Shown here piece after piece: positions 5,211 through 47,780 of a stretch of 64,000 nt of DNA. The stretch is from positions 1 to 64,000 of the forward strand of contig SUZR01000003.1 in NCBI GenBank assembly GCA_015059845.1, written 5' to 3'. The translations under genes and the position numbers were made by a program. Under the pieces are notes generated by a model. That model saw nothing but the letters and a program-made list of their open reading frames with translations. It made no database searches and was not told where the DNA came from. The stretch comes from Rikenellaceae bacterium. Lineage in GTDB: Bacteria; Bacteroidota; Bacteroidia; Bacteroidales; Rikenellaceae. Each line of letters begins with the position of its first letter. The stretch's first letter is position 1.

Positions 5211-6608
5211 ATGAGATTATTTTCGACATATAGGAGTTTTTACAAGGAGAACCTGCAGCTGGCTTTCCCCGTCATACTGTCGCAAATCGGTCAGATTACC
5301 GTCCAGATGGCCGACACAGCTATGGTGGGTAACTACGGAGGCGACGACCCCACGCCGCTGGCAGCCGTATCCTTTGCCACAAATCTGTTTTATATCATAT
5401 TCATCACCTCACTCGGCCTAACCTTCGGCCTTACACCTCTCGTCGGTGAGCGTTTTGCACAGAAGCGTGACAGGCACGTGCGCGAGTTGTTGCAGAATGG
5501 ATTTTTGCTCTACTCGCTCATTGGTGTTATGGCTACGCTGGTTCTCATCGCATCGCGCGGAGTGTTTCCGATAATGGCTTCGCTGATGATGGGCGATGGT
5601 GGCGATGGCTCTATTTCGGGTGTGGTGGATATGGCTCTACCCTACTATGACACACTGATTTGGAGTATGTTCCCCGTAATGATATGGGGCACGATAAAGC
5701 AATTTCTCGAGGGTGTGGGCAACACGCGCGTGGCGATGGTTACAATCATCGTGGCAAATACGGTGAATATCCTGCTGAACTGGGTTTTTATCTTTGGCAA
5801 GTGCGGTTTTGAGCCTATGGGAGCTTTAGGAGCGGGTTATGCCACACTTATCTCGCGTATCCTGCAGTGCTTGATGATGGTTATATATTTCTTCCGCGCC
5901 AAGCGTTTCCGCATCTACACCGAGGGACTGCTCAAGCGCTCGATGATTAAGTTCCGCCGCATAGCCGAGATATTGAAGGTGGGAATACCCATCTCGTTCC
6001 ATATGTTTATGGAGGCGAGCGCCTTTGTCGTGGCCGGCATTATGGTTCTGGCGTTTGGTGCCGCTTCTGTTAGTGCCTACCAGATTGGTGTGAATATGAT
6101 GAACCTGACGTTTATGATTGTCATTGCCATCGGCTCCTCTACAACCATCCTCTGCTCGCACATCTACGGCAACAGGGACTTCTCTCGTCTGCGTCGCACC
6201 GTTTATGCAGCCTACCAGATGGGCCTGCTGTGGAATATCTCGGTAGCAACACTCTTCGTAGCGTTCAGATACCAGATTCCCACGCTCTTCACGACAAATG
6301 TGCAAACCATCGAGATTACGGCCGATATGCTGATTTTCATATCGTTATTCCAAGTATCCGACTGCTTGCAGGCCATCTCAATCAGTATTATGCGCGGTTT
6401 GCAGGATGTCAAAGTACTGATGCCCATTGTATTCGTATCGTATGTAGTGATAAATATCCCCGTTGCCTATCTGCTCGCCTTCGTGTGCGGTTTTAAGACA
6501 AACGGACTCATTATGGGCTTCATCGTAGGATTGTCGTGCTGTGCCGTGATGACCATACGACGAGTGAGAAAGAATATAAAGCGACTGGAAATGAGTGTCG
6601 AAAATTAA
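5211..6608 (+). CDS. MATE family efflux transporter
   Basis: An inner-membrane multidrug/toxin exporter of 465 residues, the usual length for MATE proteins, with about 12 predicted membrane helices. The N-terminal stretch FPVILSQIGQITVQMADTAM is the typical first helix of the NorM/DinF group, and the two six-helix halves repeat the pattern (second half around ISFHMFMEASAFVVAGIMV). Family members export cationic drugs or metabolites in exchange for Na+ or H+; the substrate cannot be read here. A promoter box sits immediately before the start. The gene is divergent from the AraC regulator and runs toward ricT, whose ATG lies 37 bases after its stop. Confidence 0.92.
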   Translation: MRLFSTYRSFYKENLQLAFPVILSQIGQITVQMADTAMVGNYGGDDPTPLAAVSFATNLFYIIFITSLGLTFGLTPLVGERFAQKRDRHVRELLQNGFLLYSLIGVMATLVLIASRGVFPIMASLMMGDGGDGSISGVVDMALPYYDTLIWSMFPVMIWGTIKQFLEGVGNTRVAMVTIIVANTVNILLNWVFIFGKCGFEPMGALGAGYATLISRILQCLMMVIYFFRAKRFRIYTEGLLKRSMIKFRRIAEILKVGIPISFHMFMEASAFVVAGIMVLAFGAASVSAYQIGVNMMNLTFMIVIAIGSSTTILCSHIYGNRDFSRLRRTVYAAYQMGLLWNISVATLFVAFRYQIPTLFTTNVQTIEITADMLIFISLFQVSDCLQAISISIMRGLQDVKVLMPIVFVSYVVINIPVAYLLAFVCGFKTNGLIMGFIVGLSCCAVMTIRRVRKNIKRLEMSVEN

Positions 6609-9917: not shown

Positions 9918-11030
9918 CTACTCGGTGGCACGAGTGCCAAATCGAAGATACGGAGCCAAACGTTTGGCTTCCTCCTCGGATAATATGTTTTGCTCTATCA
10001 ACTCTTCGATTCTACTCCAACCTCCTTTCAATTGTCGTTGTTTAATAATTCGCCTCAGTGCCCGCGCCGACACATAAGGATGACGACCTAACTCTTTCGG
10101 ACCCGCAAAGTTAATATCAATTTTTGAAATAACGAAACTATCGCAACAAATTTTCGGCAAAATTTTCTCGAAATTGCTCTCTGTGACCGTTTTCAGCTCG
10201 GCAATTTGCTCCACGGAGTGGTATCCACCCAATAGATTTCGATATTTTACGATTTCCGCTGCGCTCTTCGGCCCTATGCCATCGATGGCAACCAACGCCG
10301 CCGAATCGGCCGAATTAATATCAATAAGGTTGGTTGCAAACTCTGGCAACTCACACTCAGGCGTTGGTTTATCATCCGTACAGACAATGGCAGCATCCAC
10401 AGAGAAGATGATATACGGAATAATCTTTTCTGCCATCTCCTCGCTCACCACATAGCAGCGGCGAAACTGCTCGGCCGAACGGATACCGCCACTCGCATCA
10501 CGATAGCGAAGAATAACATCTGCCTGCTTTGGAGAGAAGCCCCACAGCGCAAGATAGGCCGCCGATACGGTATCGAGAGAAAACCGCTCGGGCGTAAACG
10601 ATATCTTATTCTCGGAGATGGGATTACGAGGTATCGTGTTTTCACGAAATGCAGGGCGTGAATTACTCCGCTCGGTATATGGTCTGGGAGCGAGGGAATC
10701 GGCTATAATGATATATGGTTTTAGCAGAGTATACAACGAGTCGGTCATACCCGACACCTGCGTTAAATCCTCCTCTATACGATACACCTTACCATATCGT
10801 CGCCAGCGGACGATACCTGCTGCTACGGCTGTCGGAACGCCCGATTCTCGCAACTGCTCATACTCAAAACTATTTGGGTCAAAAGGCTGAAGCACAACCT
10901 CCTGCTCGCTCGATGTCATAAGCGCCGGCTTGTCTATCACATCAATTAAGATAGCCAGCATCAGAACTATCAATAACAACGGCAGCAGAGTCAGCACTCC
11001 ACGACGCTCCACCTGGTCAAATAGTTTCAT
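9918..11030 (-). CDS. helix-hairpin-helix DNA-binding protein (ComEA-like repeats), membrane anchored
   Basis: 370 residues. An N-terminal membrane anchor (TLLPLLLIVLMLAILIDVI) is followed by four helix-hairpin-helix-like regions: around residues 60-95 (PTAVAAGIVRWRRYGKVYR), 160-195, 235-270 (INSADSAALVAIDGIGPKSA) and 300-340. The third is a clear ComEA-type HhH with the GIGPKSA turn. In competent bacteria such domains bind DNA during uptake; in Bacteroidales the role of this larger protein is not established. It lies 10 bases after the UbiD-family gene on the same strand. The domain call is sure, the function is not. Confidence 0.8.
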   Translation of the reverse strand: MKLFDQVERRGVLTLLPLLLIVLMLAILIDVIDKPALMTSSEQEVVLQPFDPNSFEYEQLRESGVPTAVAAGIVRWRRYGKVYRIEEDLTQVSGMTDSLYTLLKPYIIIADSLAPRPYTERSNSRPAFRENTIPRNPISENKISFTPERFSLDTVSAAYLALWGFSPKQADVILRYRDASGGIRSAEQFRRCYVVSEEMAEKIIPYIIFSVDAAIVCTDDKPTPECELPEFATNLIDINSADSAALVAIDGIGPKSAAEIVKYRNLLGGYHSVEQIAELKTVTESNFEKILPKICCDSFVISKIDINFAGPKELGRHPYVSARALRRIIKQRQLKGGWSRIEELIEQNILSEEEAKRLAPYLRFGTRATE

Positions 11031-11040
11031 AACTTATGTT

Positions 11041-12894
11041 TTACCACTCAGCCTTGGCTGAGAGCCACAGTTTACGATAACGACGCGAGGGCGACTCAAT
11101 CATCTCGCCCAAGCCATACTCCGCCCAACGCTTGTCCACCATATGGATAGTTTCGGTCGAGGACATCACAACATTCGGGAAACGTGCAGGGTTATCCCCC
11201 ACCCCAGGGTGTTTGCTACGCGCGTCAAGCAACAGCTCGCCAGAGGGTAATATCTCCACATCGCGGCGTGGGTCGCTATTGGCCATAGCCAACCACAGAA
11301 GGTCATTTGCGGTCATCGCCCCAGCTGCTTGATAATCAAACAGAGCGATATACTTCATCCCGTCTATATTATTGTGCTTAAGATATGCCTTTACGTCAAC
11401 CTCTACGGGGCGGCTCTCCTCAGCAAAGAGCAACAGCAGACCATACTCCTCAACAAAGCGCGTGTCGAACAGCGCCACGCCACCACAAGGCTCAGCCGTA
11501 CGCGGTGCCACGATAGGCTCTATGGGCGAATTGATATCAATATCGGTAAGGTCAACAGCCAGTTTACCACCAAAGCCGCACGTTGCCGTCGCGTGGTCCA
11601 ACACATCCAAAATACCCTCTGCGCGAATCACATCACGCCTCACATCGGCACGGCGCAGCAGACGGCCCAGCATCGCAAACTCGCGGATATTATGCTCGGC
11701 CGAGGCGACCACCATATATTTATTAAACATCATCTGCCCCGCACCCCACAGCGACTGCGCCACCTTATGCGACTGGCCCTCATATCGTTTATCTATCGAC
11801 ACAACGGCCAGGTTGTGCGCCGTACCCTCGATAGGCATCCATAAATCGCGCACCTCAGGCTGCACGGCAAGTCGTATCGGAGCAAGGAAAATCTTCTCGG
11901 TAGCCTCAGCGATATAGGCATCCTCCTGCGGCGGCACGCCCACCACCGTAGCGGGATATATTGCATCGCGGCGATGCGTAATACAGGTAACGTGAAAACG
12001 AGGATATAAATCTTTCAGAGAGTAGAAACCCGTATGGTCGCCAAAATCGCCCTCCACAGCCTTCTCCTCCGCAGGGTCAACATAACCTTCGATAACGAAA
12101 TCACAATCAGCAGGAATACGAATATCGCACGTCAAGGCCTTCACCAGCTTCACGGGCTTCTGGCGCAGGAATCCCGCCAACAGATACTCGTCCATATTAT
12201 CGGGCATAGGAGCCGTAGCGGCATAGGTATATGCAGGGTCACCGCCCAAAGTCACCACAACGGGCATCTTTTGTCCCAGGCGTTTATAGGCATCGTAGTG
12301 ACGCGCACCCGTCTTATGGATGTGCCAATGCATACCCGTTGTGCGCTTATCAAAGCGCTGCATACGATACATACCGACATTGCGCATACCCGTCTCAGGG
12401 TCAACGGTGTTAACCATCGGCAGCGTTACAAACGCTCCGCCATCGCACTCCCACGAGTGTAGCAACGGCAGACGTTCCAAATCGACCTCATCGCCCTGCC
12501 ACACAACCTGCTGACACTCACCACGACCCGACATACTCTGCGGAAACCATTTAGCCACATCAGCCAGCAGCGGTAACATACGCATCTTCTCCCACAGCGA
12601 GCCCTTCGGAGAGAGAGCATCGCCAAGAAGTGCAGAGATTCTATCACCAATATCGTCAAGCGACTCCACACCCAGCGCCATCGCTATACGGCGAGAAGAG
12701 CCCATCATATTGGTTATGACAGGGAACTCCGTACCCGTATTTTCAAACAAGATAGCCTTGCCGCCACCCTCCGACTTTACCACGCGGTCGGTAATCTCGG
12801 CAATCTCAAAGCGGGTGCTGACGGGCGCTTTAACCCTTACCAGCTCCCCCTCGCGCTCCAAGCGGGCAATATATTCTCGCAGGTTTTTATACAT
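11041..12894 (-). CDS. UbiD family decarboxylase (menaquinone-type)
   Basis: A 617-residue UbiD-family enzyme. Members decarboxylate aromatic or unsaturated acids with prenylated FMN made by UbiX and are often assigned to menaquinone or ubiquinone synthesis. Visible family features are the N-terminal MYKNLREYIARLEREGELVRV, the central DCDFVIEGYVDPAEEKAVEG with conserved acidic residues, the LDHATATCGFGGKLAVDLT region and the C-terminal PSRRYRKLWLSAKAEW. It is longer than E. coli UbiD (about 497), as is common in Bacteroidota. No ubiX or other menaquinone gene is in view, so the substrate is inferred only. Five bases separate it from the upstream Gfo/Idh gene. Confidence 0.85.
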   Translation of the reverse strand: MYKNLREYIARLEREGELVRVKAPVSTRFEIAEITDRVVKSEGGGKAILFENTGTEFPVITNMMGSSRRIAMALGVESLDDIGDRISALLGDALSPKGSLWEKMRMLPLLADVAKWFPQSMSGRGECQQVVWQGDEVDLERLPLLHSWECDGGAFVTLPMVNTVDPETGMRNVGMYRMQRFDKRTTGMHWHIHKTGARHYDAYKRLGQKMPVVVTLGGDPAYTYAATAPMPDNMDEYLLAGFLRQKPVKLVKALTCDIRIPADCDFVIEGYVDPAEEKAVEGDFGDHTGFYSLKDLYPRFHVTCITHRRDAIYPATVVGVPPQEDAYIAEATEKIFLAPIRLAVQPEVRDLWMPIEGTAHNLAVVSIDKRYEGQSHKVAQSLWGAGQMMFNKYMVVASAEHNIREFAMLGRLLRRADVRRDVIRAEGILDVLDHATATCGFGGKLAVDLTDIDINSPIEPIVAPRTAEPCGGVALFDTRFVEEYGLLLLFAEESRPVEVDVKAYLKHNNIDGMKYIALFDYQAAGAMTANDLLWLAMANSDPRRDVEILPSGELLLDARSKHPGVGDNPARFPNVVMSSTETIHMVDKRWAEYGLGEMIESPSRRYRKLWLSAKAEW

Positions 12895-12899
12895 TATAT

Positions 12900-14210
12900 T
12901 TATTTTGTTTTCAGCGGCTCATACGGCACGCGATACTTTTCGTCAAGTGTAAGTATTGCTCCCTCGTGCATAGCCTTGTCCGCAAGCAATGCAAACTGCG
13001 TAGCGTAATATGACTCCTCCAGCACCTTCTCGGGCTGCTTGCCTGTAATTACGGCGTGGATAAAGGCCTCCAGCAGCTCCTTTGAGCCATCGGCCTCGGC
13101 ACCCACTGAACTCTCACCCGTAACCACCTTCACGTTAGCCATAATAGGCATACCCGGCGCCAATGCGCTGGTCTCGGCAGCCCACGACGTGCCGGCAAAT
13201 ACAGAGTTACTCATCACGCCATTCTCAATCTGCTCCACCAGCTGATGCATACCGCTACCCTTCGGTGCAGACTCATCGGTATAGTGCATACCCGTAACGA
13301 GGTCAATAGTACCCTTCGAGCCGAGAATCTGCTCACCCATACCGAAGTGCTTATTCGAGATGATTGACTCGAAGGTCATATTCACACCATTCGGATAGGT
13401 GAAGATAGCTGTAACACAGTCATATACATCACGCTTATCCACCTTATTCCAATGAATCAGGCTACCCGAGCCCATAACCTTCTCGGGCAACATACCCATA
13501 GCCCACGAGCCATTCTGCAGCTGGTGGCAGGCAAGCTCGGTCATCAGGCCACGCGAGTAGTCGCTATACAATCGCCAATTTATATGGCGCTCCAACTCGG
13601 GCGAGGGCACCTCACGTCGCCAGTCGTTATTGCGATACCAGTAATTTCTAACACCCACAACATCGCCAATCACGCCCTCGTGAATCATCTGCATAGCCTT
13701 GATATACTTGGGGTCAAACAGACGCTGCTGACCGATGAACAACACGCCACCCAGCTCCTTACGCAGGTTATAGACCTCCAGAGCCTCATCCAGCGTGAAG
13801 GCCATCGACTTCTCGCAGAATACGCGCTTACAGGCACGCAGTGCATCCATAGTCATACGGCCGTGCAGGTACAACGGGGTCGCAATAATCACGCCCTGCA
13901 CATTTTTATCCTCCAGCAGACGGCGGTAATCGTCATACTGCTTTGCCTGAGGGTAGTACTGCACTGCATCCTCCAGATGGGGTCGGTAGTTATCACACAA
14001 GGCAACAACCTCAACCTGAGGCATCTGCAACAGGTGATTGATATGGAACATACCGCGTGAGCCGGTACCAATAATACCTATACGGGCCTTCTCTCCACTC
14101 ACCTCCTGCTTGGCCTTCTCGCTACACGACTCCAACCACGGAAAGAGCGACAACACCGCTCCGGCAAATCCCATACGTCCACAATCGGACAGAAATTCTT
14201 TTCTATTCAT
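12900..14210 (-). CDS. Gfo/Idh/MocA family oxidoreductase with export signal
   Basis: 436 residues. The N-terminus MNRKEFLSDCGRMGFAGAVL resembles the twin-arginine-like or lipoprotein leaders found on secreted Bacteroidales members, with Cys at LESC about residue 29. A Rossmann fold follows with ARIGIIGTGSRGMFHINHLL near residue 42 and the nucleotide/catalytic motif EKSMAFT in place of the usual EKP. The C-terminal domain carries HQLQNGSWAMG. The family oxidises or reduces sugars and inositols with NAD(P). The YPTH-type motif of GH109 was not seen, so I do not call it a glycosidase. It is probably cotranscribed with the UbiD gene. Its substrate is unknown. Confidence 0.82.
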   Translation of the reverse strand: MNRKEFLSDCGRMGFAGAVLSLFPWLESCSEKAKQEVSGEKARIGIIGTGSRGMFHINHLLQMPQVEVVALCDNYRPHLEDAVQYYPQAKQYDDYRRLLEDKNVQGVIIATPLYLHGRMTMDALRACKRVFCEKSMAFTLDEALEVYNLRKELGGVLFIGQQRLFDPKYIKAMQMIHEGVIGDVVGVRNYWYRNNDWRREVPSPELERHINWRLYSDYSRGLMTELACHQLQNGSWAMGMLPEKVMGSGSLIHWNKVDKRDVYDCVTAIFTYPNGVNMTFESIISNKHFGMGEQILGSKGTIDLVTGMHYTDESAPKGSGMHQLVEQIENGVMSNSVFAGTSWAAETSALAPGMPIMANVKVVTGESSVGAEADGSKELLEAFIHAVITGKQPEKVLEESYYATQFALLADKAMHEGAILTLDEKYRVPYEPLKTK

Positions 14211-44335: not shown

Positions 44336-45766
44336 TTACATAAAGCCAAAACGGCTAATCTTGGCTGGCCGCTCAAAGACAGCCTCCTGCTCCACAATAC
44401 CCGTCAGCACATCGGCAGCATCGTGCCAGCGGTTGGAGTTGAAGTCACGGCGATACCCCATCAGGTGGGCATACATATCGGGCCAGCACTGCGCCCATCC
44501 ACGCGGGAAACGGATATTATGCACAACCGTAGCCGAATGTGAGAGGATGCGCGCCTGCTTATTGGCGCTCTGGTGAAACCAATCAATCTTCACACGTGGC
44601 ACAAGACGCTGCACAGCTCGCGCAAAGCCGCGACCGCCATTATTGCTCTCAATCAGAGCCGAGCGCACCTCGGAGCGTTGCAACATATCGGCAACAAGTT
44701 TTTCGGTAACCTCCATAGGCTCACGCGAATAGACCACATCCAGCACATAGACCACGCCATCGGCATCCACAGCATACGACACCGAGCATAGATAGTCATC
44801 ACCCATATCGGCCGTATCGGTATAGTTTGCTCGGCGGACAATATGGTCGGGCAAGGTATCCCACTCGGCAAAGCCATCTCCATAGAGCAGTCCGCCACGT
44901 GACGAGGGACGCCCCTGATACATAGCCTCAAAACGCATAGGGTCCAATCTTCGCTTAGCCTCAAGCAACTCCGCACTCTGCCGCTCAGGCCACAAAGCCT
45001 CACCCACCTCACGAGGGTCAATCTCGGTCGGAGAGCCACTCTTTATCGCCTCAAAATTGAGGTAGAGCCATCCACCCGCCGCAACACGCCCAATATCCGC
45101 CCACTGGCGCAACTCAATACACGGCTCAAGTCGCAGCAGCGTACCAATCAAATCCTCCTCGTGCCAACGGGTAAAGACAATCAGCTCCTGCGAGTCGTTA
45201 TGCATACGCGTTCGCACAACCGAGGTGTACCACTCCCAGCAATTCTCGCGTATAAGGGGCGAGTTGGCCTCCATCGCATCCTTATAGAGGTCGTCAAGAA
45301 TAAAGCAATCTACCCTATTTCCCGTAAGCGAGCCCTCACGCCCAACGGAGAGCAATCCGCCCTCGTGGTCGATAACCTCAAATTCATCCGTAGTACGAAT
45401 ATATGACGATTGTCGGCCCAATGACTTTATGCGTGTTTTGGAAAATATTTCGCCATATTCAGAACTATCGATAATACGCTGCACACGGCGGTTAAACTTG
45501 CTGGCCAGCGATGCTGAATAGGAGGCGATAGAGAGTCGCAAATCGGGGTTTAGACCCAACATATAGGCGGGCAACAATGTGCTGGCGCCCACACTCTTAC
45601 CGTGCTGCGGAGGCATAGAGACTATAAGTTTGCGTATTCGCCCAGCAGCAAACTCCTCAAGCAGACGATAATAGGTTTCGTGAAAGGTTTGACACTCCAA
45701 AAAGGGATATACATTTTTGGCAAAATTGGAAAAATTTATACTATTACTCTTCATCACTCTACTCAT
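44336..45766 (-). CDS. orphan phage-type terminase large subunit
   Basis: 476 residues of a terminase large subunit, the DNA-packaging motor and nuclease of tailed phages. The N-terminal ATPase has Walker A PPQHGKSVGAS near residue 50 and Walker B CFILDD near residue 150, with the coupling motif VFTRWHEEDL near 200. The C-terminal RNase H-like nuclease keeps acidic residues in TDTADMGDDYL near 320, LIESNNGGRG near 365 and WHDAADVLTG near 455. Nothing is broken, yet no portal, capsid or tail gene is near. A small protein gene precedes it with 3 bases between, then a divergent S24 repressor. It could be a domesticated phage gene or the last part of a decayed prophage. Confidence 0.87.
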   Translation of the reverse strand: MSRVMKSNSINFSNFAKNVYPFLECQTFHETYYRLLEEFAAGRIRKLIVSMPPQHGKSVGASTLLPAYMLGLNPDLRLSIASYSASLASKFNRRVQRIIDSSEYGEIFSKTRIKSLGRQSSYIRTTDEFEVIDHEGGLLSVGREGSLTGNRVDCFILDDLYKDAMEANSPLIRENCWEWYTSVVRTRMHNDSQELIVFTRWHEEDLIGTLLRLEPCIELRQWADIGRVAAGGWLYLNFEAIKSGSPTEIDPREVGEALWPERQSAELLEAKRRLDPMRFEAMYQGRPSSRGGLLYGDGFAEWDTLPDHIVRRANYTDTADMGDDYLCSVSYAVDADGVVYVLDVVYSREPMEVTEKLVADMLQRSEVRSALIESNNGGRGFARAVQRLVPRVKIDWFHQSANKQARILSHSATVVHNIRFPRGWAQCWPDMYAHLMGYRRDFNSNRWHDAADVLTGIVEQEAVFERPAKISRFGFM

Positions 45767-45769
45767 TGA

Positions 45770-46057
45770 TTAAATATACTCACGCATCTCATTGAACGAG
45801 AAATTATTTATCACCTCCTGCCCGTCAATAAAGGTGTGAAACTCCCACCACACGGGAACGATGTCGCTGATGAGCGAGGCCATACGCCCCTCGGGGTACT
45901 GCTCCTCGTGGCGATACACTACGGCCGAGAGAACGACGTGGCACAGCACATCCTCCCACTCCATATCAAACGAGCCATTGTAATAACCTCGGTGGCCGAC
46001 CTGCTCGATAATCCTTGCGGCCACCTCTCGATAAAGTTCAGGTAAAACGTCATACAT
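45770..46057 (-). CDS. small protein upstream of terminase, unknown
   Basis: 95 residues, acidic and rich in aromatic residues (VWWEFHTFIDGQEV). It has no signal peptide, membrane helix or HTH that I can see, so it does not look like a standard small terminase subunit, although its position before the large subunit is where such a gene would lie. It ends 3 bases before the terminase start and is transcribed divergently from the repressor. Confidence 0.65.
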   Translation of the reverse strand: MYDVLPELYREVAARIIEQVGHRGYYNGSFDMEWEDVLCHVVLSAVVYRHEEQYPEGRMASLISDIVPVWWEFHTFIDGQEVINNFSFNEMREYI

Positions 46058-46114
46058 AATTGAAAATGTTTAATTTTTGATTGTTTTTCGTTTGTTTATT
46101 CAAAATAAATTGCT

Positions 46115-46122
46115 TAACTTTG
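46115..46122 (+). promoter_or_regulatory. -7 promoter box for the S24 repressor (TAACTTTG)
   Basis: Exact TAnnTTTG match pointing toward the repressor, overlapping the palindrome at 46119-46131 and facing a minus-strand box at 46128. Confidence 0.55.
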
Positions 46123-46131
46123 CAATGCAAA
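46119..46131. promoter_or_regulatory. palindrome TTTGCA-A-TGCAAA, candidate operator
   Basis: A perfect 13-base inverted repeat covering the ends of the two face-to-face -7 boxes in the terminase/repressor divergent region. A second palindrome, TTCAA-ATA-TTGAA, lies at 46137-46149, centred 18 bases away, and an A/T-only one (TTTATT-CAA-AATAAA) at 46095-46109. They do not share a sequence, so operator status is a guess. Confidence 0.4.
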
Positions 46132-46135
46132 TATA
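46128..46135 (-). promoter_or_regulatory. -7 promoter box for the small-protein/terminase transcript (TATATTTG)
   Basis: CAAATATA on the plus strand reads TATATTTG, an exact TAnnTTTG match, about 70 bases before the small-protein start. Confidence 0.5.
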
Positions 46136-46203
46136 ATTCAAATATTGAACTTTTATACTGCAGAATACAATTATTTGATATAGTATTTTCTAATACATAC
46201 GCT

Positions 46204-46875
46204 ATGGAAAGCAAGGTAAAACTTATACGCAAAGAGCTAAAGATGACACAAGAGCAATTAGCTCAGCGACTTGGAATCGGCAAAGCTGCCCTCTCAATGA
46301 TTGAAACAGGCAAGTGTGGCCTATCCACTCGCAACAAAAATATATTAGTTCAAGATTTGAACGTAAACCCCGATTGGCTCGAGACAAGCAAGGGCAATAT
46401 GTTCAACGCTGAACCCGACCTTACAGCTTTCCGACTCCGCACCGACAACTCGCTACCGATGCAGAGCGTGCCCCTCTACTCGATTGAGGGAACAGCTGGA
46501 CTTGTACCGCTATTCAACGACCAGGCATCCAACAAACCTATAAACTTCATTCACATCCCCAACCTGCCCAAGTGCGACGGTGCAATCTATGTTTCGGGCG
46601 ACTCAATGTATCCCCTGCTCAAGAGCGGCGATATTGTTCTCTACAAGCAGCTGCATAATATAGAGGATATCTTTTGGGGCGATATGTATCTGCTCTCTAT
46701 CGACCTCGAGGGCGAGGAGTATATCGTGGTGAAGTATATTCAGAAGTCCGAGCGCGAGGGTTACGTGAAACTTGTAAGCCAGAATCCCCACCACGCCGAC
46801 AAGGAGATTGAGGTTAGCCGCATACGCGCCATTGCGCTGGTTAAGGCGAGCATACGAATGAACTCTATAAGATAA
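46204..46875 (+). CDS. XRE/S24 repressor, LexA/CI-like
   Basis: 223 residues from the ATG at 46204; the longer ORF-track start has no support. The N-terminal XRE helix-turn-helix is at residues 5-55 (MTQEQLAQRLGIGKAALSMI). The C-terminal S24 peptidase domain has the catalytic Ser in YVSGDSMYPLLKSGD near residue 137 and the Lys in YIVVKYIQKS near residue 180. An Ala-Gly pair in EGTAGLVPLF lies about 36 residues before the Ser, the spacing of the LexA/CI self-cleavage site. It is thus probably a phage-type repressor cleavable with RecA. It is divergent from the terminase and overlaps the EamA gene by one base. Confidence 0.88.
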   Translation: MESKVKLIRKELKMTQEQLAQRLGIGKAALSMIETGKCGLSTRNKNILVQDLNVNPDWLETSKGNMFNAEPDLTAFRLRTDNSLPMQSVPLYSIEGTAGLVPLFNDQASNKPINFIHIPNLPKCDGAIYVSGDSMYPLLKSGDIVLYKQLHNIEDIFWGDMYLLSIDLEGEEYIVVKYIQKSEREGYVKLVSQNPHHADKEIEVSRIRAIALVKASIRMNSIR

Positions 46876-47780
46876 TGGGTAACAAAACCATATACCATAT
46901 TATCGCCATCGTAACGGCTGCAATATGGGGTACAACATTCATCTCGTCGAAGATTCTGCTCGAACACGGTCTATCACCTGCCGAGATTATGATTCTGCGC
47001 TTCGCTATGGCATACGTCTGTATGTTGCCATTCTGGCGCGGAGGGCTGCTGGCCAAGAGTTGGAGAGATGAGCTGCTGATGGTTATCTTAGGCATAACGG
47101 GTGGCTCGATGTACTTCCTGCTGGAGAATACCGCTCTGGTATATACGCAGGCGTCGAATGTGGCCATTATCATCGCCTCCACGCCACTGCTCACCACGCT
47201 GGCCGTACACTTCATCTCACGACAAGAGAGGGCCGACAAACGGCTATACGTCTGCTCGCTGCTATCGCTTGTGGGCGTTGCGCTGGTGGTGCTGAATGGA
47301 GAGTTTATCCTGAAGCTGAGCCCTATGGGCGACCTGCTGACGTTGGGTGCTGCCGTGATGTGGGTTATATACAGCATCATCGTCCTGAAGTTAGAGGGCA
47401 AGTACCACCCACTGATGATTACGCGCAAGATATTCTTCTACGGCGTGCTGACCCTTGCGCCCTACTTTCTGTTTGAGCCGTGGAGCGTGGAGTGGCAGAT
47501 GCTGGCAGACAAGACTGTGGCGGGGAATCTGCTGTTTTTGGGTATTGTGGCCTCGCTTATATGTTACTGGTCGTGGAATATCGTTATCGAGAAGCTGGGC
47601 GCTATACACGCCACAAACTACCTATATATAAACCCTATAGTGGCGATGATTACCGCCTATGCAGTCCTGCACGAGCGCATCACACCGCTGGCTATTGTCG
47701 GTACGGCGCTGATTTTATTGGGTGTCTATATGGCCGAGAGGAAAAAAAGTGGCCGTCAGGAGGATAACGAAACGAATTAA
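46875..47780 (+). CDS. EamA (DMT) family transporter
   Basis: An inner-membrane permease of the drug/metabolite superfamily: 301 residues, ten predicted helices in two EamA repeats (IIAIVTAAIWGTTFISSKIL at the start; GDLLTLGAAVMWVIYSIIVL in the second). The start codon overlaps the repressor stop (TAATG), so it is translationally coupled to it. Cargo cannot be told. It is unusual to find such a permease tied to a phage-type repressor. Confidence 0.87.
   Translation: MGNKTIYHIIAIVTAAIWGTTFISSKILLEHGLSPAEIMILRFAMAYVCMLPFWRGGLLAKSWRDELLMVILGITGGSMYFLLENTALVYTQASNVAIIIASTPLLTTLAVHFISRQERADKRLYVCSLLSLVGVALVVLNGEFILKLSPMGDLLTLGAAVMWVIYSIIVLKLEGKYHPLMITRKIFFYGVLTLAPYFLFEPWSVEWQMLADKTVAGNLLFLGIVASLICYWSWNIVIEKLGAIHATNYLYINPIVAMITAYAVLHERITPLAIVGTALILLGVYMAERKKSGRQEDNETN

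Follow-up and report, generated by a model that had tools for sequence, protein, structure and literature searches.

The terminase locus in the window

The stretch of DNA analyzed here (the window) comprises 64,000 nucleotides, positions 1 to 64,000 of contig SUZR01000003.1 in assembly GCA_015059845.1 of a Rikenellaceae bacterium, whose genome sequence (G000; 15 contigs, 2.09 Mb) has a completeness of 92.6%. Our subject is a phage-type terminase large subunit (TerL) that is encoded together with a small protein, p95, and a divergently transcribed repressor. This locus probably makes up one half of a domesticated phage, with the packaging motor and the regulator, and belongs to a system resembling a gene transfer agent (GTA) that has been kept by vertical descent across most Rikenellaceae. 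The terL-p95-repressor-EamA block sits between TsaD/NMO and two POR genes, and the flanking genes of the locus (TamB, TsaD, PepSY, NMO, PorA/PorB and NhaP) are housekeeping or unrelated. The genes of the block are as follows.

44336-45766, minus strand: TerL, terminase large subunit (ATPase and nuclease), 476 aa; phrog_38, E=2.8e-85
45770-46057, minus strand: p95, 95 aa, no function assigned, first gene of the terL operon
46204-46875, plus strand: XRE-S24 (LexA/CI-type) repressor, 223 aa, divergent from p95-terL; HTH_3 and Peptidase_S24
46875-47780, plus strand: EamA permease, E=1e-39, overlapping the repressor stop codon

The repressor open reading frame (ORF) as listed begins at 46081, and the ATG at 46204 is most likely its actual start.

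A first-pass annotation of this DNA had described an intact orphan TerL with p95 and a divergent XRE/S24 repressor among housekeeping genes, and the family matches given above bear out that description. TerL also matches Pfam Terminase_6N (E=7e-7) and, above cut-off, NCBIfam TIGR01630, and judged by its sequence it is a true terminase; matches of the TerL sequence to TAL repeats in PDB were discarded as low-complexity noise. The motifs PPQHGKS (Walker A), DDLY, TRWHE, TDTAD, ESNNGGRGFAR and DAxD are invariant or nearly so in 112 sequences, which agrees with the earlier statement that Walker A, the Asp-Asp of Walker B and the acidic residues of the nuclease are kept. What lies in the window is a phage-derived packaging motor with intact catalytic residues.

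TerL is found in 36 of 37 genomes of the same genus, G000 included, and in 0 of 24 genomes of other families. Within the Rikenellaceae it is present in 243 of 268 genomes, among them 106 of the 110 good ones, and in 18 of 22 genera. The nearest TerLs among named phages are those of Bacteroides phage B40-8 (49%) and Alistipes phage AS73P1 (45%), but these are full phages, and their gene preceding terL encodes an HTH-like (helix-turn-helix) N-terminus. One in-frame TAG each occurs in the TerL open frame of genomes G124, G140 and G154, and TerL lies in two frames in G069, G008 and G210; both patterns reflect decay or assembly error. Second TerL copies, in G204 (C1:1605053-1606414, 35% identity) and G014 (C26:84416-85831, 44%), are probably prophages.

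Conservation of the repressor-p95-TerL module and its control region

As a check, the first-pass annotation had proposed to see whether terminase, p95, repressor and permease stay together in relatives. Three of the four proteins do. The divergent repressor adjoins terL in 73 of the 73 loci that have at least 1.4 kb upstream of terL, and p95 is located between the two in nearly all relatives. EamA, in contrast, adjoins the repressor in just 20 of 80 loci, those of the closest relatives only, and we therefore do not count the permease as a member. The flanks of the module vary, and either orientation relative to TsaD and POR occurs; for example, the module of locus L034 is oriented opposite to those of L053, L058, L083 and L094 (different species) with respect to the same flanking genes.

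The p95 protein has no match among the families of Pfam, PHROGs, NCBIfam and PADLOC. Its AlphaFold2 model (pLDDT 96.7) consists of a helix and a sheet of long strands, a fold that rules out p95 as the small terminase. Comparison of this fold with PDB gave nothing below E=0.2, with only weak matches to phage proteins of 91-94 aa. A PVWW motif in p95 is nearly invariant.

The gap between p95 and the repressor contains the following predicted elements, and a further site lies within the repressor gene.

46115-46122, plus strand: Bacteroidota -7 box TAACTTTG of the repressor promoter
46128-46135, minus strand: -7 box TATATTTG of the p95-terL promoter
46137-46149: predicted operator TTCAAATATTGAA, overlapping the place where the -33 region of the p95-terL promoter is expected, some 23 nt past the -7 box of the repressor
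46349-46361: a further exact operator-like sequence, within the repressor gene, which may reflect no more than coding constraint

The face-to-face pair of boxes (TAnnTTTG/CAAAnnTA) is found in 116 of 131 intergenic regions. The palindrome TTCAAN3TTGAA is perfect in 44 of these 131 regions and has at most one mismatch in 108, where shuffled sequences lead one to expect 0. The whole of G000 holds two exact sites, 46137-46149 and 46349-46361, both at the repressor; since a reversed control pattern gives an equal genome count, it is the placement of the palindrome that is unusual and not its number. In 105 repressor sequences, the Ala-Gly cleavage region (EGTAGLVP), the GDSM serine and the VKY lysine are largely conserved, and SOS-type self-cleavage of the repressor may therefore be fairly inferred.

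A head operon elsewhere in the genome

The first-pass annotation had noted that no portal, capsid or lysis gene is near TerL. This is correct for the neighborhood and incorrect for the genome, in which these genes lie on contig C14. Their position can be recognized from genus g40 (locus L168), in which the gene for a ClpP-type head protease comes after terL, with genes for a candidate capsid protein, a portal and a connector behind it. Homologues of the g40 capsid protein are present in 244 of 268 genomes of the family (106 of 110 good ones; 17 of 22 genera), nearly always in single copy. In G000 the homologue belongs to an operon that is conserved across genera, on the plus strand of locus L202 (C14:73001-93000). 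Its genes, in L202 coordinates, are listed below; g10, g9 and g6 are three tail-type or function-unassigned proteins.

5345-5749, plus strand: g10, 134 aa
5772-6746, plus strand: g9, 324 aa
6740-9079, plus strand: g6, 779 aa
9104-10102, plus strand: prohead protease, ClpP-type; phrog_94, E=1e-38
10167-11159, plus strand: major capsid protein, HK97-fold; phrog_1623, E=6e-7
11173-11622, plus strand: 149-aa protein
11645-12868, plus strand: portal; phrog_11226, E=6e-18
12875-13351, plus strand: connector; DUF6712, E=2e-14
13326-13742, plus strand: holin; PF05105, E=3e-11
13739-14140, plus strand: lysozyme; phrog_873, E=4e-39

Capsid, portal and prohead protease are thus encoded in the same genome as TerL. 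The capsid protein modeled with AlphaFold2 was that of L222, an IMG/VR contig whose cluster is the one found in G000, and the model (pLDDT 72) matches HK97-fold capsids in PDB (E=7e-10), including the native GTA particle 6tb9. Linkage of terL to head genes is seen in three genera: in addition to g40, the protease and capsid genes come directly after terL in genus g43 (L169), and in genus g44 (L279) some 4 kb separate terL, p95 and the repressor from the head operon.

In many genera a separate TTGAC/TAnnTTTG promoter precedes the head operon, and that of g44 overlaps a site, TTCAAATATTGAC, that is a variant of the operator. Repeats of TTATCRACA, which resemble DnaA boxes, occur in the head-operon leader, upstream of the first head gene, in several Alistipes (L202, L211, L217 and L218); they are rare in other genera and too weak a signal to use. 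Beginning 113 nt past the lysozyme gene, at L202:14254-15732 of G000 C14, is a ComEC-type DNA-uptake gene (PF03772, E=1e-45), and the same neighbor is present in G177, G068 and G064. The short IMG/VR contigs L222-L225, L287 and L288 are classed there as viral but look like fragments of the chromosomal cluster, and L222 is protein-identical to G000 over ten genes. An IMG/VR capsid search with the g40 protein as query gave no match.

Co-occurrence, descent and selection

TerL and capsid are associated across the family: 233 genomes have both, 14 neither, 10 TerL only and 11 capsid only (Fisher p=7e-11, a value that ignores phylogeny and for which a few unlisted rows were inferred). Both halves are lacking in the listed genomes of genera g27, g30, g32 and g33. 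The portal is present in 4 of 4 Rikenellaceae of an order-wide sample and in 6 of 291 other Bacteroidales, there at 26-38% identity. The system is specific to the family and does not consist of passing prophages.

Median dN/dS is 0.167 for TerL, 0.116 for the repressor, 0.23 for capsid and portal and 0.25 for p95, compared with 0.156 and 0.112 for the housekeeping proteins PorA and TsaD; these are simple NG86 counts, with dS near 1. Pairwise distances correlate with those of PorA for TerL (Mantel r=0.73), portal (0.56) and capsid (0.53), and the distances of TerL and portal correlate with one another at r=0.87. Neither integrase nor replication genes were seen beside the virion genes at either locus, where the ORFs are those of the virion cluster and of host genes on its flanks, as judged from ORF lists and family hits, with the flanking ORFs partly scanned.

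Parts lost relative to phage

The IMG/VR phages L289 (IMGVR_UViG_3300028588_000040), L292 and L290 have the same gene order as the head operon, with one additional gene, of tape-measure type, inserted after the g6-type gene and ahead of that for the protease. In L289 and L292, which carry other phage genes as well, this gene is supported by PHROG tape-measure families with E down to 1e-52. The g9 and g6 proteins are homologous to their phage counterparts (hhalign E=5e-7 and 2e-20, respectively), and g10 is matched by position only. The order protease-capsid-portal-connector is common to L289, L292, L227 and the Rikenellaceae cluster; the portal of L227 is about 45% and its capsid about 30% identical to those of the cluster, and L227 has a reverse transcriptase-like gene.

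Several genera have a small terminase gene between p95 and terL. In genus g41 it keeps its HTH (PF13384, E=1e-7). In g26 it is without the HTH and retains the C-terminal part (phrog_309, E about 1e-7), and alignment indicates the same for g29, g37 and g39. Genera g40 and g43 likely hold a short helical remnant of it, an assignment that is weakly supported. In the window and in Alistipes loci the small terminase was not found; a diverged copy may lie elsewhere in Alistipes. These HTH-less forms suggest that sequence-specific packaging has been lost, with g41 as the exception. Further scattered genes of the system may lie elsewhere in the genome.

A probable GTA-like packaging system

The system combines an intact motor with genes for capsid, portal, protease and lysis, is kept by vertical descent with no genes for integration, and has a DNA-specificity factor in decay; in sequence, this is GTA-like. 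Domestication for a gene-transfer-like particle was the first of the options raised by the first-pass annotation, and both its conservation throughout the family and the matching head and lysis genes elsewhere in the genome support it strongly. A domesticated packaging system is very likely; for working transfer, the case stands about even. The fuller proposal is of a working Bacteroidota GTA, independently domesticated in the ancestor of most Rikenellaceae, in which host DNA would be packaged by a terminase that in Alistipes does without its small subunit, and would be delivered without a standard long tail under SOS-type control. We offer this as tentative, its chances being slightly below even.

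In the mechanism that we envisage, the XRE-S24 repressor would bind the palindrome and shut off both p95-terL and its own promoter until a RecA/SOS-type signal triggers its self-cleavage, as in S24-family repressors. The head operon would be expressed from its own promoter. Capsids would assemble with the portal. In the absence of a small terminase with an HTH, TerL would start at no particular sequence when it fills them with host DNA. The producing cell would be opened by holin and lysozyme. The probable purpose would be to deliver the DNA to other members of the group, and this is the least supported step because no tape-measure gene was found. Particle production, random packaging of host DNA and transfer are thus all steps that we infer from the genes.

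Several observations weigh against a working GTA. No tape measure is present in any head cluster of the family that we read, nor was one found at a third conserved locus. A search with phrog_28 was negative for G000 and for 11 of 19 other genomes; in the remaining 8 of the 19 the match is located away from the head cluster. A normal long tail is therefore unlikely, which makes transfer uncertain. The terL operator was sought ahead of the Alistipes head operon and is not clearly present there, the g44 variant being the only one seen, so joint control of the two halves is no more than possible. Genus g43 has no relative of the repressor beside terL, some TerL genes are split or stop-carrying, and a few good genomes hold one half only (no capsid gene in G167 and G199; neither TerL nor repressor in G186). 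Distances of TerL and capsid correlate poorly (r=0.28), and parts may therefore be exchanged; vertical inheritance and purifying selection over a wide clade are found despite this. Finally, long reads from faecal virus-like particles assign GTA-type packaging mainly to Ruminococcaceae and Oscillospiraceae, not to Rikenellaceae, which are abundant in the total DNA of the same study (PMC12946183).

The alternative that survives best, though we consider it unlikely, is a domesticated head that packages DNA without delivering it and serves kin killing, DNA disposal or another use. It would suit a system with no tape measure gene and, in Alistipes, with holin and lysozyme genes adjoining the head genes. 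Its precedent is PBSX of Bacillus subtilis, a defective prophage whose particles contain 13 kb of host DNA taken at random and do not transfer it (PMC7667829). PBSX particles kill kin, and we liken them to the Rikenellaceae system by description, not by gene comparison. However, the three tail-type genes g10, g9 and g6 have been kept (dN/dS of g6 is 0.20, from four pairs only), and killing would normally need a tail.

It is very improbable that an old phage has fragmented here and left TerL and the head genes as relics of a decaying prophage. The division of the genes over two loci, the missing tape measure and, in Alistipes, small terminase, and the few genomes with a split TerL or without one half would fit such decay. 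Against it, both halves are present in about 96% of good genomes, the catalytic residues are invariant, dN/dS is close to that of housekeeping genes, and operator and promoters are conserved; given the dN/dS values and this conservation, the explanation is already disfavored. Neither virion genes contiguous with integration or replication genes nor random loss of catalytic residues was found. The checks for decay that the first-pass annotation had proposed come out the same way: the neighborhoods read in relatives contain no complete prophage at this site, the catalytic residues are kept and dN/dS of TerL is low.

Capsid-forming phage-inducible chromosomal islands (cf-PICIs) carry head, portal, protease and terminase genes and are not known to carry a tape measure, a set that the Rikenellaceae genes match. 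A satellite of this kind would make its own head and borrow helper-phage tails, and satellite parasitism had been among the options of the first-pass annotation. However, a mobile island with an integrase and patchy distribution is not what we find: no integrase was seen beside either half, the two loci are unlinked in Alistipes, and the system is single-copy, vertical and fixed in the whole family, with distances that correlate with a housekeeping gene. We consider this explanation very improbable. Equally improbable is the reading of repressor-p95-TerL as a stand-alone module for defence or regulation that has nothing to do with the head operon. This reading would fit the own transcription unit of repressor-p95-TerL in Alistipes and the p95 fold without known match, but sits poorly with the linkage of TerL to head genes in g40, g43 and g44, with family-wide co-presence and with the PADLOC defence models, none of which matches TerL or p95 and which give only weak HTH matches for the repressor; the defence option of the earlier annotation is thus not supported.

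Comparison with known GTAs

GTAs described in detail are mostly alphaproteobacterial. The GTA of Rhodobacter capsulatus (RcGTA) and its alphaproteobacterial counterparts share with the GTA-like system of the Rikenellaceae vertically kept head, protease, portal and terminase genes at more than one locus, and an HK97-fold capsid, as the match of our capsid model to 6tb9 illustrates. The small terminase of RcGTA, gp1, is likewise without an HTH DNA-binding domain, an absence that its authors link to random packaging (PMC6854486). Unlike RcGTA, the Rikenellaceae system derives from a different phage ancestor, as its TerL is nearest to that of phage B40-8; it is without a detected tape measure, its small terminase was not found in Alistipes, it lies beside a CI/LexA-type repressor, and it belongs to the phylum Bacteroidota. 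VSH-1 of Brachyspira, a gut bacterium of a different phylum, is a GTA with a divided genome according to the title of reference 21 in PMC13420450, and in its gut host and divided genes it would resemble the present system; the likeness is one of description, not of sequence. The literature searched, outside which most subscription papers lie, contains no GTA report for Alistipes, Rikenellaceae or Bacteroidota, which does not prove novelty. A study in mice describes transduction patterns left without assignment, and patterned contigs of Bacteroidetes in large number (PMC7667829).

Within the family, a small terminase with its DNA-binding domain, then one without it, and then none that can be detected form a series along which, we propose, a phage could have turned into a system that packages at random. 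A built-in particle that packages DNA would, if true, be a route of gene exchange among Alistipes and its relatives, which are common in the gut. Such a route would be missed by virus screens or filed as viruses, and at least four IMG/VR records are pieces of the cluster.

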